Below are positions 26,175 to 60,714 of a DNA stretch of 64,000 bases, one piece after another (position 1 is the first letter of the stretch; each line of letters starts with the position of its first letter). Source of the stretch: Glaciihabitans sp. (lineage in GTDB: Bacteria > Actinomycetota > Actinomycetes > Actinomycetales > Microbacteriaceae); NCBI GenBank assembly GCA_025464095.1, contig JAODMF010000021.1, positions 1-64,000 of the forward strand, given 5' to 3'. Below the pieces are notes generated by a model. The model made no database searches, had not been told where the DNA came from, and worked only from the letters and a program-made list of their open reading frames with translations. A program made the translations under genes and the position numbers.

Positions 26175-28481
26175 CTACTGCCCGATGACCGGGCCGAACG
26201 CGTCGCTCAGGGTCGAACGGTGCACGCGGCGCAGTTCGTCGAGCTCCACGGTGAACTGGTCCTGGATCTCGAGCGCGCCACCGGCATCCGTCACACCGAT
26301 GCGCAGCACCGGGTAGCCGCGCCCCTCGCACAGTCCCTGGAACTTCACGTCGTCCTCGCGCGGCACGCTCACGATGACGCGGCCGGTCGATTCGCTGAAC
26401 AGGGCGGTAGCGGCATCCACGCCGTCACGCTGCATGATCTCGGTGATCCAGATGCGCGCGCCGACGCCGAAGCGCAGGGTCGCCTCGGCGAGTGCCTGCA
26501 CGAGGCCGCCATCGGCGAGGTCGTGCGCGCTGCCGATGAGGCTCTGGTCGCTGCCGGCGGCGATCAGAGCGGCGAGCTGCAGTTCCGCATCCAGATCGAC
26601 GACCGGCGGCCGACCGCCGAGGTGGTCATGGATTACGCCGGCCCAGGCCGAGCCGTCAAGCTCCAGCCCGGTCGTACCGAGCAGGTAGATGTTGTCGCCC
26701 TCGTCCTGCCACCCCGCCGGGATGCGCTTGGCGACATCGTCGATAACGCCCAGCACCGCGATGACCGGGGTCGGGTGGATCGGCACGTCGCCGGTCTGGT
26801 TGTAGAAACTGACGTTGCCGCCGGTGACCGGGATCTCCATCGCGAGGCAGCCGTCGGAGATGCCGGCGATCGCCTGGGAGAACTGCCACATCACCTCGGG
26901 GTTCTCCGGTGAGCCGAAGTTCAGGCAGTCGCTGACGGCGACCGGGGTGGCGCCGGTGACGGCGACGTTGCGGAAGGCCTCGGCGAGAGCGAGCTGCGCG
27001 CCCGCGTAGGGGTCGAGCTGGCAGAAACGGCCGTTGGCATCCGTCGCGACGGCGAAACCAAGGCCGCTCTCCTCGTCGACGCGCACCATGCCGCCGTCAT
27101 CCGGAAAGCTCAGGGCGGTGTTGCCCAGCACGTAGGTGTCGTACTGGTTGGTGATCCAGCTCTTGTCGGCGAGGTTCGCGCTGCCCAGCAGGCGGAGGGC
27201 CTGTTCGCGCAGCTCGTCGCCACTCGTCGGGCGCGAAAGCTTCGACGCCGAGTCGGCCTGCAGCGCGTCGATCCAGGCCGGGTACGCGACGGGGCGCTCG
27301 TACACGGGGCCATCGACGGCAACCGTGCGCGGCTCGACATTGACGATCTCCTCGCCGTGCCAGTTGATGATGAGGCGGCCGGTGTCGGTGACCTCGCCCA
27401 GGACGCTGGTCTCAACATCCCACTTGGCGGTCGCCGCGAGAAAGCCCTCGAGCTTCTCAGGCGTGACGATCGCCATCATGCGCTCCTGGCTCTCCGACAT
27501 GAGGATCTCCTCCGCCGTGAGGGTCGGGTCGCGCAACAGAACGCGCTCCAATTCGATGAACATGCCGCCGTCGCCATTCGACGCCAGCTCGCTGGTCGCG
27601 CAACTGATGCCGGCCGCACCGAGGTCCTGGATGCCCTCGACGAGCTCCTGCTGGAACAGCTCGAGGCAGCACTCGATCAGCACCTTCTCGGCGAACGGGT
27701 CGCCGACCTGCACGGCGGGCCGCTTGGTCGGGCCACCGGCACTGAAGCTGTCGCTGGCGAGAATGGATGCCCCGCCAATGCCGTCGCCACCGGTGCGGGC
27801 CCCGAACAGAACAACCTTGTTACCGACGCCCCGGGCGTTGGCGAGGTGCAGGTCTTCGTGCCGCAGAACGCCGACGGCCAGTGCGTTAACGAGCGGGTTG
27901 GCCTGGTACACGGAGTCGAAGTACGTCTCGCCGCCGATGTTCGGCAAGCCGAGGCAGTTGCCGTAGAAGCTGATGCCGCTGACCACGCCGTGCACGACGC
28001 GGGCGGTGTCCGGGTCGTCGATGCGTCCGAAGCGCAGCGCATCCATTACCGCAACCGGGCGCGCGCCCATGGAGATGATGTCGCGAACGATGCCGCCGAC
28101 CCCCGTTGCGGCACCCTGGAACGGCTCGATGTAGCTCGGGTGGTTGTGCGATTCGATCTTGAAGGTGACCGCCCAGCCGTTGCCGACATCCACTACGCCG
28201 GCGTTCTCGCCCATGCCGACCATGAGGTTCTTCTTCATCTTCTCGGAGACCTTCTGCCCGAACTGGCGCAGGTAGATCTTCGACGACTTGTACGAGCAGT
28301 GCTCGCTCCACATCACGGAATACATGGCGAGCTCGCCACTCGTGGGGCGCCGGCCGAGAATTTCGCGGATCTTCGCGTACTCGTCTTCCTTGAGGCCGAG
28401 GGCAGCCCACGGCTGCTCCCGCTCGGGCGTCGCCGCCGCGTTCGAAACGGAGTCAACGGTGACGACAGAGGGGGAATTGCT
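26175..28481 (-). CDS. purL: Phosphoribosylformylglycinamidine synthase subunit PurL
   Basis: [16 protein letters not shown]...[50 protein letters not shown] at 28481 with upstream GGAG (ORF extends to 28523). Confidence 0.95.
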
Positions 28482-28555
28482 CACGACGGTGAAGGCTCCT
28501 GAATTGAGGGCGTGCCGGTCCATCCAATTCTATCCGGAGCTGTCCACCAGCCGTC

Positions 28556-29095
28556 GTCGCGGGGGTTGGTGAGGGGGTGGGTGTTGGGTGGCGGGTGCTG
28601 GTGGCGGGTGCTGGGTGCTCGTGGCGGGGGAAACGTGCTCCTGGCGGGAGAAACGTGCCGCTGGCGAGCGAAAACGTGCTCCTGGTGAGATGTCGTGGTG
28701 GGGGAAAAGTCGTGCTGGCGGGGGAAAGTTACCGTTTACCCGTGCTGGGCCCGGCTGCGTGACCTCGTGGCGGGAGCAATGTGCTGGTGGCGGGAGCCTA
28801 GGCTCCCGCCACCTCGCAAGAACTCCCGCCGAGGGCGCCACAACCCCCGCCGCGCGGATGTTTCCCCCGCCGAGCCACGCCGGCGCCGCGCAATAACCCC
28901 CGCCGCGCGCGCTTTTAGCCCACACAACTCTCGCAAGTGCGCCACATCCCCCGCCATCCCGCCGCATCCCCCGCCACGAGCACGTTTCCCCCGCGAGCAG
29001 CGCACGCCAACCAGCACGGCCCACAACCCCACCGCCACCAGCACCCCCCCCACCAGCACCCCCCCACCAGCACCCCACCACCCCCACCGGCTTGG
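28556..29095. repeat. Imperfect inverted array of GGCGGGRGAAACGTGCT-like units centred on a perfect palindrome
   Basis: Left half has + orientation units (ggcgggggaaacgtgctcctggcgggagaaacgtg), right half the reverse complement (cacgagcacgtttcccccgc); outer ends are ggtgctggtggc... and ...ccaccagcacccc. Confidence 0.8.
28786..28813. repeat. Perfect 28 bp palindrome at the centre of the array
   Basis: ggtggcgggagcctaggctcccgccacc equals its own reverse complement. Confidence 0.9.
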
Positions 29096-29149
29096 CGCTC
29101 GGCGGCCACATCCGTAGCGTGGATGGTTGGCGCACGAGGAGGAGATGAC

Positions 29150-30427
29150 GTGTTCGAGTGGAAATCCTGGGTCGGCCTGGCCGTCGGAGTCGGAATCGGC
29201 CTGATCGCGGCCCTGCTGGTGATGGCGCTGACCGCGCTGATCGTGCGGGCGGCGTCGCGGCGCAGGGAGTGGGGCCGCGTCCTCAGCAGCACCGCGCGGC
29301 ATCCGTATCGCCTGCTGCTGGCGGTCGGCGCCGTGTGGACGGCCGTGAACGCGACTCTCCCCGACAACACCTATCGCGGCCAAATCAACCACATCTTCCT
29401 GATCGCGATCATCGCCATGGCGACCTGGTTTGCGGCCGCACTGGTGAGCTTCCTGCTCGGCCTGGCAATGGGCCGGTACCACATAGACGTGCCCGACAAC
29501 CGCCTGCGTCGACGGGTGCAAACGCAGCTGATCATTGTCCGCCGGCTCGCCGGTGTGATTATCGTCATTGTTGGGATCGCGTCGATCCTGCTCACCTTCC
29601 CCGGCGTGCAGGCCGTCGGCGCGAGTGTGCTCGCATCGGCGGGGGTAATCAGCGTCATCGGCGGCATCGCGGCGCAGTCAACCCTCGCCAACATCTTCGC
29701 CGGGGTGCAGCTGGCATTCAATGACGCCTTGCGAGTGGATGACGTGGTCGTGGTCCAGGAGCAGTGGGGACGCATCGAAGAGATCACCCTCACCTACGTC
29801 GTCATGCACATCTGGGACGACCGCCGCCTCGTGCTGCCCTCCACCTACTTCACGACCACGCCGTTTGAGAACTGGACGCGCCACTCGAGCGAGCTGCTCG
29901 GCTCGGTCGAGTTCGACCTCGACTGGCGCGTGAGCCCGGCGCGGATGCGCACGCAGCTGGATGACATCCTCAGTCGCACGAAGCTTTGGGACGGACGAAC
30001 CGCGGTGCTACAGGTCACGGATGCCGTTGCCGGCTACGTGCGCGTGCGCGTTCTCGTGACCGCGTCGGATGCGCCAACGCTGTTCGATCTTCGCTGCTAC
30101 GTGAGGGAGGCGGTGGTGGAGTGGCTCCACGAGCAGGAGCCTGGTGGCATCCCCCGCGCCAGGATCCAACTGATGGACGACGACGGCCGCAAGGCGGAGG
30201 TCGGCAAGCGCGAGGTCGGCAAGGCTGACGGCGACAAGCGGGAGGCAGGCAAGCGGGACGCCGGCAAGGCCGACGGCGACAAGCGGGACGCCGGCAAGGC
30301 GAAACCGGTCGAGACGAACACCGACTCCGCCGGACTGTTTACCGGCACGGCAGACGCGGAGCAGCGCGCGAGCCACTTCACATCCAATATCCCGATCGTG
30401 GGTGAGCAGCCCAACCGCGACGCCTGA
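29150..30427 (+). CDS. Mechanosensitive ion channel (MscS family) with repetitive charged C-terminal tail
   Basis: GVISVIGGIAAQSTLANIFAGVQLAFNDALRVDDVVVVQEQWGRIEEITLTYVVMHIWDDRRLVLPSTYF; RBS gaggaggag, GTG start; tail KADGDKREAGKRDAGKADGDKRDAGKAK. Confidence 0.88.
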   Translation: MFEWKSWVGLAVGVGIGLIAALLVMALTALIVRAASRRREWGRVLSSTARHPYRLLLAVGAVWTAVNATLPDNTYRGQINHIFLIAIIAMATWFAAALVSFLLGLAMGRYHIDVPDNRLRRRVQTQLIIVRRLAGVIIVIVGIASILLTFPGVQAVGASVLASAGVISVIGGIAAQSTLANIFAGVQLAFNDALRVDDVVVVQEQWGRIEEITLTYVVMHIWDDRRLVLPSTYFTTTPFENWTRHSSELLGSVEFDLDWRVSPARMRTQLDDILSRTKLWDGRTAVLQVTDAVAGYVRVRVLVTASDAPTLFDLRCYVREAVVEWLHEQEPGGIPRARIQLMDDDGRKAEVGKREVGKADGDKREAGKRDAGKADGDKRDAGKAKPVETNTDSAGLFTGTADAEQRASHFTSNIPIVGEQPNRDA

Positions 30428-30449: not shown

Positions 30450-30545
30450 TCGCGGCGGGGGAAACGGCCGTGGCGGGGGAAACGTCGTGCTGGCGGGAGA
30501 ACCGCTGTGGCGGGAGAAACGCGCGTGGCCGGAGAAACGGCTGTG
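30450..30545. repeat. Further GGCGGGRGAAACG-type repeat units
   Basis: gcggcgggggaaacggccgtggcgggggaaacgtcgtgctggcgggagaaccgctgtggcgggagaaacgcgcgtggccggagaaacgg. Confidence 0.75.
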
Positions 30546-58434: not shown

Positions 58435-60714
58435 ATGCCCAATTTCAAGAAGCCAGCGCCCAAGCGCGCCGGCGCACCCTCCTCAACCGCCAAGTCGGGC
58501 AGCAAGCCAGCGGGTTCCCGCGGCTACCGCGCCGACGACGGCGCGGCACCCAAGCAGCGCTGGAACGCGGATGACCGCGCCCGCCGTGGCGCGCCTGCCG
58601 CGACATCCGACCGCAAGCCGTTCCGCGGCCGCGATGCCGATGGCGGGCGTCCCGCATCCACCGAGCGTCGCCCCAACTGGGAGCCGCGCGAGAAGCAGGG
58701 CTACCAGCCACGCGGGGAGCGCACCGAGCGTCCCGCGTACGGTGACCGTGCCAACCGTACCGAGCGTCCCGCGTCCGGTGACCGTGCCAACCGCACGGAG
58801 CGCCCGTCGTACAACAACGACCGTCCGGCTCGTCCCGCCTATGGTGACCGCACCGAGCGTCCGTCGTATGGCGACCGCCCGAACCGCACCGAGCGCCCCG
58901 CCTATGGTGACCGTGCCAACCGCACCGAGCGCCCGTCGTACAACAACGATCGTCCGGCCCGTCCGGCCTATGGTGACCGCACGGAGCGTCCCGCCTACGG
59001 TGACCGTGCGAACCGCACCGAGCGCCCGTCGTACAACAATGACCGTCCGGCTCGTCCGGCCTACGGTGACCGCACGGAGCGCCCCGCGTATGGTGACCGC
59101 CCGAACCGCACCGAGCGTCCCGCGTACGGTGACCGCCCGAACCGCACCGAGCGCCCGTCGTACAACAACGACCGCCCGGCGCGACCGTCCTACGGTGACC
59201 GCACGGAGCGTCCGTCGTACGGTGACCGTCCGGCCCGAACCGAGCGTCCCGCGTATGGTGACCGTCCGGCCCGAACCGAGCGTCCCGCATCCGGCGACCG
59301 CCCCTCTTACAGTGACCGCCCGGCTCGCACCGAGCGTCCCTCGTACGACCGTGCCGAGCGCAGCGACCGTCCGGCACGCCGTGACTTCAGCTCCGATCGC
59401 GCACCGCGCCGCGACTTCACCGCGGATCGCCCTGCTCGCCGGGAGAGCGACTTCTACCCGTCCGGTGACGGCAAGACCAAGTTCACGCCTGCCGACGATG
59501 TCGTGCTCGAGCGTCTCGAAGCGGAAGCGATCACCGCGGGCGAGGTCGAGGGCGTAACGTTCGCCGACCTGGGCCTCGGTGGCAACATCGTTCGCCAGCT
59601 TGCTGAGCTCGGTGCGGCATCCCCGTTCCCGATCCAGGCCGCGACGATTCCGGATGTGCTGGCTGGCCGCGACGTTCTTGGCCGCGGCAAGACCGGCTCC
59701 GGAAAGACGATCGCCTTCGGCGCGCCCCTCGTCGAGCGCCTGATGGAGAACAACGGCGGCAAGGACCGCCAGATGGGCCGCAAGCCGCGCGCGCTCATCC
59801 TTGCTCCGACGCGTGAGCTCGCCCTGCAGATCGACCGCACGGTGCAGCCGATTGCCCGCAGCGTTGGACTCTTCACCACCCAGATCTACGGCGGAGTTCC
59901 GCAGTACAAGCAGGTCACCGCCCTGCAGCGGGGCGTCGACATCATCATCGGGACGCCCGGCCGCATCGAGGACCTGATCGAGCAGGGCAAGCTCGACCTC
60001 TCCAACATCGTGATCACGGTGCTCGACGAGGCTGACCACATGTGCGACCTTGGCTTCCTCGAGCCGGTGCAGCGCATCCTGAACGAGACGAAGAAGGATG
60101 GCCAGCGCCTGCTCTTCTCCGCCACGCTCGACAAGGGTGTTGCGACGCTCGTCAAGCAGTTCCTGACGAACCCGTCGGTGCACGAGGTGGCCGGCGAAGA
60201 CCAGGCGTCGTCGACGATTGACCACCGCGTTCTGCTCATCGAGCAGCGCGACAAGCGCCAGATCATCGAGGAGCTGTCGCGCGGCGAGGGCAAGACGCTC
60301 GTCTTCACCCGCACGCGCGCGTTCGCCGAAGAGTTGTCGGACCAGCTGGAGGATGCCGGGATCCCGGCAACCAGCCTCCACGGCGACCTCAACCAGTCGC
60401 GTCGTACGCGTAACCTGCAGTTGCTCACGAGCGGCCGGGTGAACGTGCTGGTCGCGACGGATGTTGCGGCTCGCGGCATCCACGTCGATGACATCACCCT
60501 GGTCATCCAGGCGGATGCGCCGGAGGAGTACAAGACCTACCTGCACCGTTCGGGCCGTACCGGCCGCGCGGGCAAGCAGGGCACGGTCGTCACGCTCATC
60601 CCGAAGGCGCGTCGTCGTCGCATGGACGAGCTGCTCGGCCGCGCGGAGATCAAGGCATCGGTGGACTTCGCCGCCCCGGGCGACACGATCCTCGCGGACC
60701 TGGCCGCACTGTAA
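58435..60714 (+). CDS. DEAD/DEAH-box RNA helicase with N-terminal Arg/Tyr/Pro-rich repeat domain
   Basis: GRGKTGSGKT, PTRELALQI, GTPGR, VLDEADHM, SAT, HRSGRTGRAG; N-terminal RTERPxYxDR repeats. Confidence 0.93.
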   Translation: MPNFKKPAPKRAGAPSSTAKSGSKPAGSRGYRADDGAAPKQRWNADDRARRGAPAATSDRKPFRGRDADGGRPASTERRPNWEPREKQGYQPRGERTERPAYGDRANRTERPASGDRANRTERPSYNNDRPARPAYGDRTERPSYGDRPNRTERPAYGDRANRTERPSYNNDRPARPAYGDRTERPAYGDRANRTERPSYNNDRPARPAYGDRTERPAYGDRPNRTERPAYGDRPNRTERPSYNNDRPARPSYGDRTERPSYGDRPARTERPAYGDRPARTERPASGDRPSYSDRPARTERPSYDRAERSDRPARRDFSSDRAPRRDFTADRPARRESDFYPSGDGKTKFTPADDVVLERLEAEAITAGEVEGVTFADLGLGGNIVRQLAELGAASPFPIQAATIPDVLAGRDVLGRGKTGSGKTIAFGAPLVERLMENNGGKDRQMGRKPRALILAPTRELALQIDRTVQPIARSVGLFTTQIYGGVPQYKQVTALQRGVDIIIGTPGRIEDLIEQGKLDLSNIVITVLDEADHMCDLGFLEPVQRILNETKKDGQRLLFSATLDKGVATLVKQFLTNPSVHEVAGEDQASSTIDHRVLLIEQRDKRQIIEELSRGEGKTLVFTRTRAFAEELSDQLEDAGIPATSLHGDLNQSRRTRNLQLLTSGRVNVLVATDVAARGIHVDDITLVIQADAPEEYKTYLHRSGRTGRAGKQGTVVTLIPKARRRRMDELLGRAEIKASVDFAAPGDTILADLAAL
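58720..59370 (+). repeat. In-frame tandem repeat coding RTERPSYNNDRPARPAYGDRTERPAYGDRAN-type units
   Basis: Repeated caccgagcgcccgtcgtacaacaacgaccgtccggctcgtccggcctatggtgaccgc blocks. Confidence 0.9.

Follow-up and report, generated by a model that had tools for sequence, protein, structure and literature searches.

A mirrored repeat array beside purL belongs to a dispersed, REP-like family linked to a putative nuclease gene at guaB

The 64,000-nucleotide stretch of Glaciihabitans sp. DNA analysed here (the window) carries, between the divergent genes purL (26175–28523, minus strand) and an MscS-type mechanosensitive channel gene (29123–30427, plus strand), an array of short units at 28556–29095 whose orientation flips at a perfect 28-bp palindrome, GGTGGCGGGAGCCTAGGCTCCCGCCACC, lying exactly at 28786–28813, which bears out the mirrored arrangement described in the initial annotation. 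This is the window's longest perfect palindrome (about 0.001 expected from base composition), and its core is GGCGGGAG-CCTAGG-CTCCCGCC (28789–28810). Forward units (GGCGGGRG, some with one mismatch) lie at 28603, 28623, 28643, 28697, 28717, 28769 and 28789, and reverse-complement units (CYCCCGCC) at 28803, 28823, 28844, 28864, 28897, 28948, 28968 and 28988; their dominant step, at first put at about 18 bp, is 20 bp, an 8-mer plus 12. Unit positions and the pairing rule described below define an innermost left half-site pair (28769 and 28789; 28769–28796, plus strand) and an innermost right pair (28803 and 28823; 28803–28830, minus strand), each with its members 20 bp apart. A second left pair, GGTGGGGG at 28697 and GGCGGGGG at 28717 (28697–28724, plus strand), lies 52 bp or about five helical turns from the inner one, and a second right pair (28844 and 28864; 28844–28871, minus strand) lies 21 bp from its own inner pair. 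Farther out stand left units at 28603, 28623 and 28643 in 20-bp steps (28603–28650, plus strand) and right units at 28897, 28948, 28968 and 28988 (28897–28995, minus strand). The outermost flanks, with decayed units of GGTGGCGGGTGCT repeats on the left (28558–28614) and CCACCAGCACCCCC repeats on the right (29020–29088), mirror each other as first proposed, the arms 28563–28607 and 29032–29076 being 73% complementary.

The units also exceed what composition predicts, a point on which the initial annotation had made its reading depend: with up to two mismatches, GGCGGGRGAAACG occurs 16 times in the window against 7.2 expected, a count reached in 1 of 100 shuffles. A second array of GGCGGGRGAAACG units between the mscS-like gene and purQ (30454–30539, plus strand) is one-sided, with 17–20 bp steps and neither centre nor dyad, and its unit is similar to that of genus g79. 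The sequence GCTGGTGG, the E. coli Chi octamer, is found at 28595–28608, 28781–28794 and 29032–29073, in the array flanks and beside the centre, perhaps by chance of composition. Two further repeats in the window lie apart from the array: the tail of the mechanosensitive channel is charged and KADGDKREAGKRDAG-like, from 45-bp tandem repeats at 30181–30302, and 27–129 bp tandem repeats in codon register at 58720–59300 apparently encode a long low-complexity repeat protein. For the array, a coding repeat was rejected, as the step of 20 bp is not divisible by 3 and the window centre carries no gene call, and an Rfam search returned a single chance miRNA match far under threshold.

A genome-wide search for clusters of the unit, suggested at the outset, proved decisive, revealing the window array as one member of a dispersed family. 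Used as a query against its own genome, the array yields 112 matching pieces at more than 30 places, and the core pattern GGCGGGAG-C-N-Y-R-N-G-CTCCCGCC occurs in 42 exact copies, against 0 for a reversed control pattern. About 36 similarly built repeat clusters are scattered over the genome, all of them intergenic (the lone call inside a gene looks like a spurious open reading frame), with 14 between convergent, 14 between tandem and 5 between divergent genes and a few at contig edges. Their orientation is constant, the G-rich strand lying left of the centre and the C-rich strand right of it. The window array is a non-coding, dispersed REP-like element and not a one-off palindrome. No sign of the recombination hotspot that had also been proposed was seen, though tandem duplications of arrays occur at a number of loci (L015, L016, L029, L033, L035 and L040).

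The geometry of 520 exact units underscores the regularity of these elements. In 45 of 47 cases, facing units (forward, then reverse) are separated by a gap of exactly 6, and gaps between units of the same orientation are mostly 12, 13 or 14, then 23–25, 33–34, 43–45 and 53–55, with the series 12-13-12-14 running outward from the centre on both arms. The 8-mers thus form direct pairs 20 bp apart that always point toward the 6-bp centre, and from pair to pair the spacing changes in whole helical turns. Steps of at least 25 bp are phased at 10.1–10.5 bp with p~1e-18, a Rayleigh approximation in which steps from one duplicated place are not independent; decay of units can also yield steps from about 41 bp upward, but cannot yield those of about 31–33 bp (gaps of 23–25). 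Innermost spacers from the left and right arm resemble each other more closely when they come from one place (6.7 of 12 positions) than when they come from different places (5.8 of 12; p=0.0016). Whole-turn spacing of pairs that face a 6-bp centre supports a DNA-bound protein, of which it would be the signature: a phased complex on DNA requires the pitch of B-DNA, and RNA alone needs no such pitch.

Related arrays occur in other members of the family, with a centre hexamer that varies by lineage. The own-type centre appears in only one of 58 other relatives, as a single match; with the hexamer left open, GGCGGGAG-N6-CTCCCGCC is found 24 times in G203, 23 in G074, 18 in G358, 12 in G292 and 9 in G384, and also in some others. 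Unit pairs and helical phasing recur in these relatives; the printed sequence of G203 shows GGCTGGAG as the outer half-site, once more at a distance of 20 bp. In a wider contig scan, the centre retrieved mostly single terminator-like hairpins from unrelated phyla. Flanking genes are mostly unrelated between genera, the clearest shared positions being a gap in the rhamnose catabolism operon and the guaB region; the former holds an array both in our genome (L028) and in G074 (L171), possibly an old shared position or a joint transfer. A long run of cccagtg heptamers lies beside two elements at L203 in G292.

Comparison of neighbouring genes across genera singled out one gene, which encodes a 314-residue protein (C20:56621-57562), adjoins guaB and has arrays on both sides. 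Its orthologues in G074, G149, G203, G292, G410 and others likewise adjoin guaB, in most cases with a guaB-like gene on their other side, and among the best 30 matches most adjoin one or both of these. Arrays flank the gene on both sides in our genome, G074, G292 and G384, and weaker sites do so in G149, G203 and G410. Among eight aligned orthologues, Pfam reports AbiEi_4 in 8 of 8, DUF559 in 2 of 8 (weakly) and no Y1_Tnp; the AbiEi_4 match of our own protein and some of the other Pfam matches lie under the curated cut-offs. Invariant in the alignment are D236, E247-x-D249-G and K253, and D...E-x-D...K is the PD-(D/E)XK pattern of Vsr/DUF559 nucleases. The protein is likely an AbiEi-type winged helix-turn-helix (wHTH) fused to a DUF559/Vsr-like PD-(D/E)XK domain, and so a putative nuclease. 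A PDB sequence search with it gave nothing useful, and no AbiEii toxin gene was seen next to its gene, which is bordered by guaB and by a guaB-like or ABC-F gene. Many genomes of the family also carry, at other positions, more distant AbiEi/DUF559-like homologues (L278–L297, L244–L251), each enclosed by private repeats of its own: upstream and downstream flanks share 13–30 nt in 18 of 20 distant homologues, compared with 1 of 85 control genes from our own genome.

Several lines tie the arrays to this gene. Across 400 genomes of the family, with a homologue scored as a match of at least 390 bits and an array as at least two exact centres, arrays occur in 15 of the 22 genomes with a close homologue and in 2 of the 378 others (p=4e-20; kinship is not removed from this figure, which spans five genera, and members of one genus are not independent of each other); leaving out the eight seed genomes gives 9 of 14 (p=2e-13). 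Some genomes have an orthologue without exact centres (G391, G415, G206 and G029), and G017 and G398 have two exact centres each without a close orthologue. In g97 the gene-side repeats are CTCCGCG-like and the dispersed repeats are GGCGGGAG. G144 has the gene and no GGCGGGAG centres; there the gene is flanked by YGCGGTAG units of the same geometry, which predicted a dispersed repeat of that type. Six copies of GCGGTAG-N6-CTACCGC were found, one at the gene and five elsewhere, against none in nine other genomes, and these units form the same 20-bp pairs. The corresponding prediction for ATAGACATGTCTAT, which flanks the gene in G080, G251 and G070, passed more weakly, with 3, 4 and 1 genome copies, respectively (the copy in G070 being the gene-side one), one copy in G292, which lacks that flank, and none in eight others. 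In these two lineages, in which the gene is flanked by a different repeat, this different repeat is also the dispersed one, as had been predicted. Moreover, on the sequences compared, repeat type follows the protein tree: types assigned by eye before the tree was made (25 of 36 rows can be extracted automatically) need nine changes, the minimum for ten types, against 15.1 when shuffled. Co-occurrence, flanking on two sides, co-variation and two passed predictions together link the arrays to the gene beside guaB.

How such a link might work is suggested by two precedents. AbiEi proteins bind paired inverted repeats, which in two members are spaced by 3 or 13 bp, and AbiEi itself binds as two cooperating monomers and bends the DNA (PMC7319586); in REPIN/RAYT systems one immobile gene is accompanied by dispersed repeats that diversify alongside it (PMC3116915). 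The binding logic of AbiEi together with a nuclease-like tail would explain the paired, helically phased half-sites, and, joined to the REPIN/RAYT precedent, leads us to read the window array as probably a dispersed target site of the guaB-linked AbiEi-wHTH and DUF559/Vsr-like protein. We hypothesize that copies of the protein occupy GGCGGGAG half-sites spaced by two helical turns, and that pairs facing each other over the 6-bp centre would assemble into a nucleoprotein complex that is phase-locked and probably bent. The gene would stay at one chromosomal place, flanked by its own repeats, while copies of the repeat would have reached, or been retained at, dozens of sites between genes, in the manner of REPINs and RAYT genes; the nuclease may drive this spread, most likely through a cut at the dyad and copying during repair. 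Binding of the protein to the arrays is well supported, if indirectly, while cleavage and mobilisation of the repeats are what we infer beyond it. Two suggestions of the initial annotation thus each caught a part: a nucleoid-protein site, in that helical phasing supports a DNA-bound protein, and a mobile-repeat pair, in that the array belongs to a dispersed REP-like family tied to one nuclease-like gene.

The same phasing would suit chromosome-organising sites, at which a host protein (nucleoid-associated, nucleoid-occlusion or RacA-like) marks the origin side and the nuclease-like gene is a mere neighbour. In four single-contig relatives of one genus in which dnaA was located (G149, G203, G292 and G410; contig C1), element deserts of about 1 Mb include the point opposite dnaA in 4 of 4, and with elements merged within 5 kb only 2 of 65 lie beyond 0.75 of the origin–terminus distance (p=2e-6, pooled over these four genomes). 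A terminus rich in young genes, or with higher gene turnover, could also lack old elements, however, and the patchy presence of arrays inside a genus would be odd for a core chromosome function. Moreover, in several genera the repeats stand on either side of one particular gene and vary in concert with it, and we regard this explanation as unlikely, although a host role of the arrays in chromosome organisation, on top of their proposed role as nuclease target, is possible. An ordinary AbiEi-like repressor that controls itself and a regulon of dozens of genes through operator arrays would account for the repeats upstream of the guaB-linked gene, and AbiEi proteins do autoregulate via paired inverted repeats (PMC7319586); but the gene has repeats downstream as well, about 14 of our 33 loci sit between convergent gene ends, and no common function was seen among neighbours as far as these were annotated, so that we give this reading a low probability.

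Transcription terminators or RNA hairpins at gene ends appear less probable still. The window array folds strongly as RNA, 7 standard deviations below shuffles (z −7), and convergent places outnumber divergent ones 14:5, yet that ratio gives p=0.06, some arrays, that of the window included, stand between divergent genes where there is no gene end, no U-tract is present (no T-run follows the window palindrome), and spacing at B-DNA pitch extends over hundreds of base pairs. Arrays do lie at several contig ends of the draft assembly (C3, C25 and C28), as an assembly artefact or a simple GC-rich minisatellite might, but the same architecture is found inside contigs, with a fixed 6-bp centre and phase pattern. 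Misassembly, which the initial annotation had named among the findings that would refute its claim, is unlikely given that the architecture recurs in single-contig relatives, and we attach almost no weight to an artefact.

Should the target-site reading hold, it would add a second, unrelated nuclease lineage with a REP-like life-style and many natural specificities, and it would offer a ready-made set of protein–site pairs and a likely role for the abundant 'AbiEi/DUF559' genes of unknown function. A repeat code readable from the flanks of a gene would also provide a test of what keeps such repeats in bacterial genomes. More tentatively, and with somewhat less than even confidence, we propose that the AbiEi–DUF559/Vsr-like genes of the family, each with private flanking palindromes, form a class of independent REP-like systems, in which a domesticated PD-(D/E)XK nuclease and not an HUH transposase maintains and spreads phase-locked arrays that may mark the origin side. 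In the open-licence literature searched, we found no such nuclease-linked repeat system, which is no proof of novelty, and no paper that brings together DUF559 and inverted repeats, or RAYT and REPIN with Actinobacteria; matches to the 8-mer there were eukaryotic promoters, primers and similar.

Among known systems, nucleoid occlusion and origin-marking sites such as those of Noc, SlmA and RacA are dispersed, palindromic and missing from the terminus region. The arrays resemble them in their exclusion from the terminus, in four relatives of one genus, and differ in their length and phasing, their patchy phylogeny and their link to a nuclease-like gene. Intrinsic terminators differ from the window array, which lies in a divergent context and has no T-run after its palindrome. 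With Vsr/DUF559 PD-(D/E)XK nucleases the guaB-linked protein shares the D...E-x-D...K motif, the Pfam model matching 2 of 8 members. With AbiEi of type IV AbiE systems (PMC7319586) it shares N-terminal wHTH similarity and paired inverted sites with spacings one helical turn apart (3 vs 13 bp there); it departs from them in its nuclease-like C-terminal domain, in forming no bicistron with an AbiEii nucleotidyltransferase toxin gene, none of which was seen next to it, and in sites that lie on both sides of the gene and are dispersed over the chromosome.

The classic case of short repeats between genes that persist thanks to a domesticated endonuclease is that of REP elements with their RAYTs. 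As in REPIN–RAYT systems (PMC3116915), a single-copy gene is flanked by its own repeats, many non-autonomous, inverted copies are dispersed between genes in each genome, and the repeat diversifies with the gene and differs between genomes. In contrast, the linked protein here is AbiEi-like and weakly DUF559/Vsr-like instead of a Y1 HUH transposase (Pfam, eight orthologues), the element is a phased array of 8-mer pairs round a 6-bp centre where a REP is a 20–40 bp hairpin doublet, and the unit GGCGGGAG lacks a GTAG or CGTC end tag. Because two defining features, the HUH transposase and the tag, are missing, we do not file the family as REP/RAYT. It would represent a selfish-DNA-like type of system, apparently undescribed in the open-licence literature, that works like REPIN–RAYT but with an unrelated nuclease.
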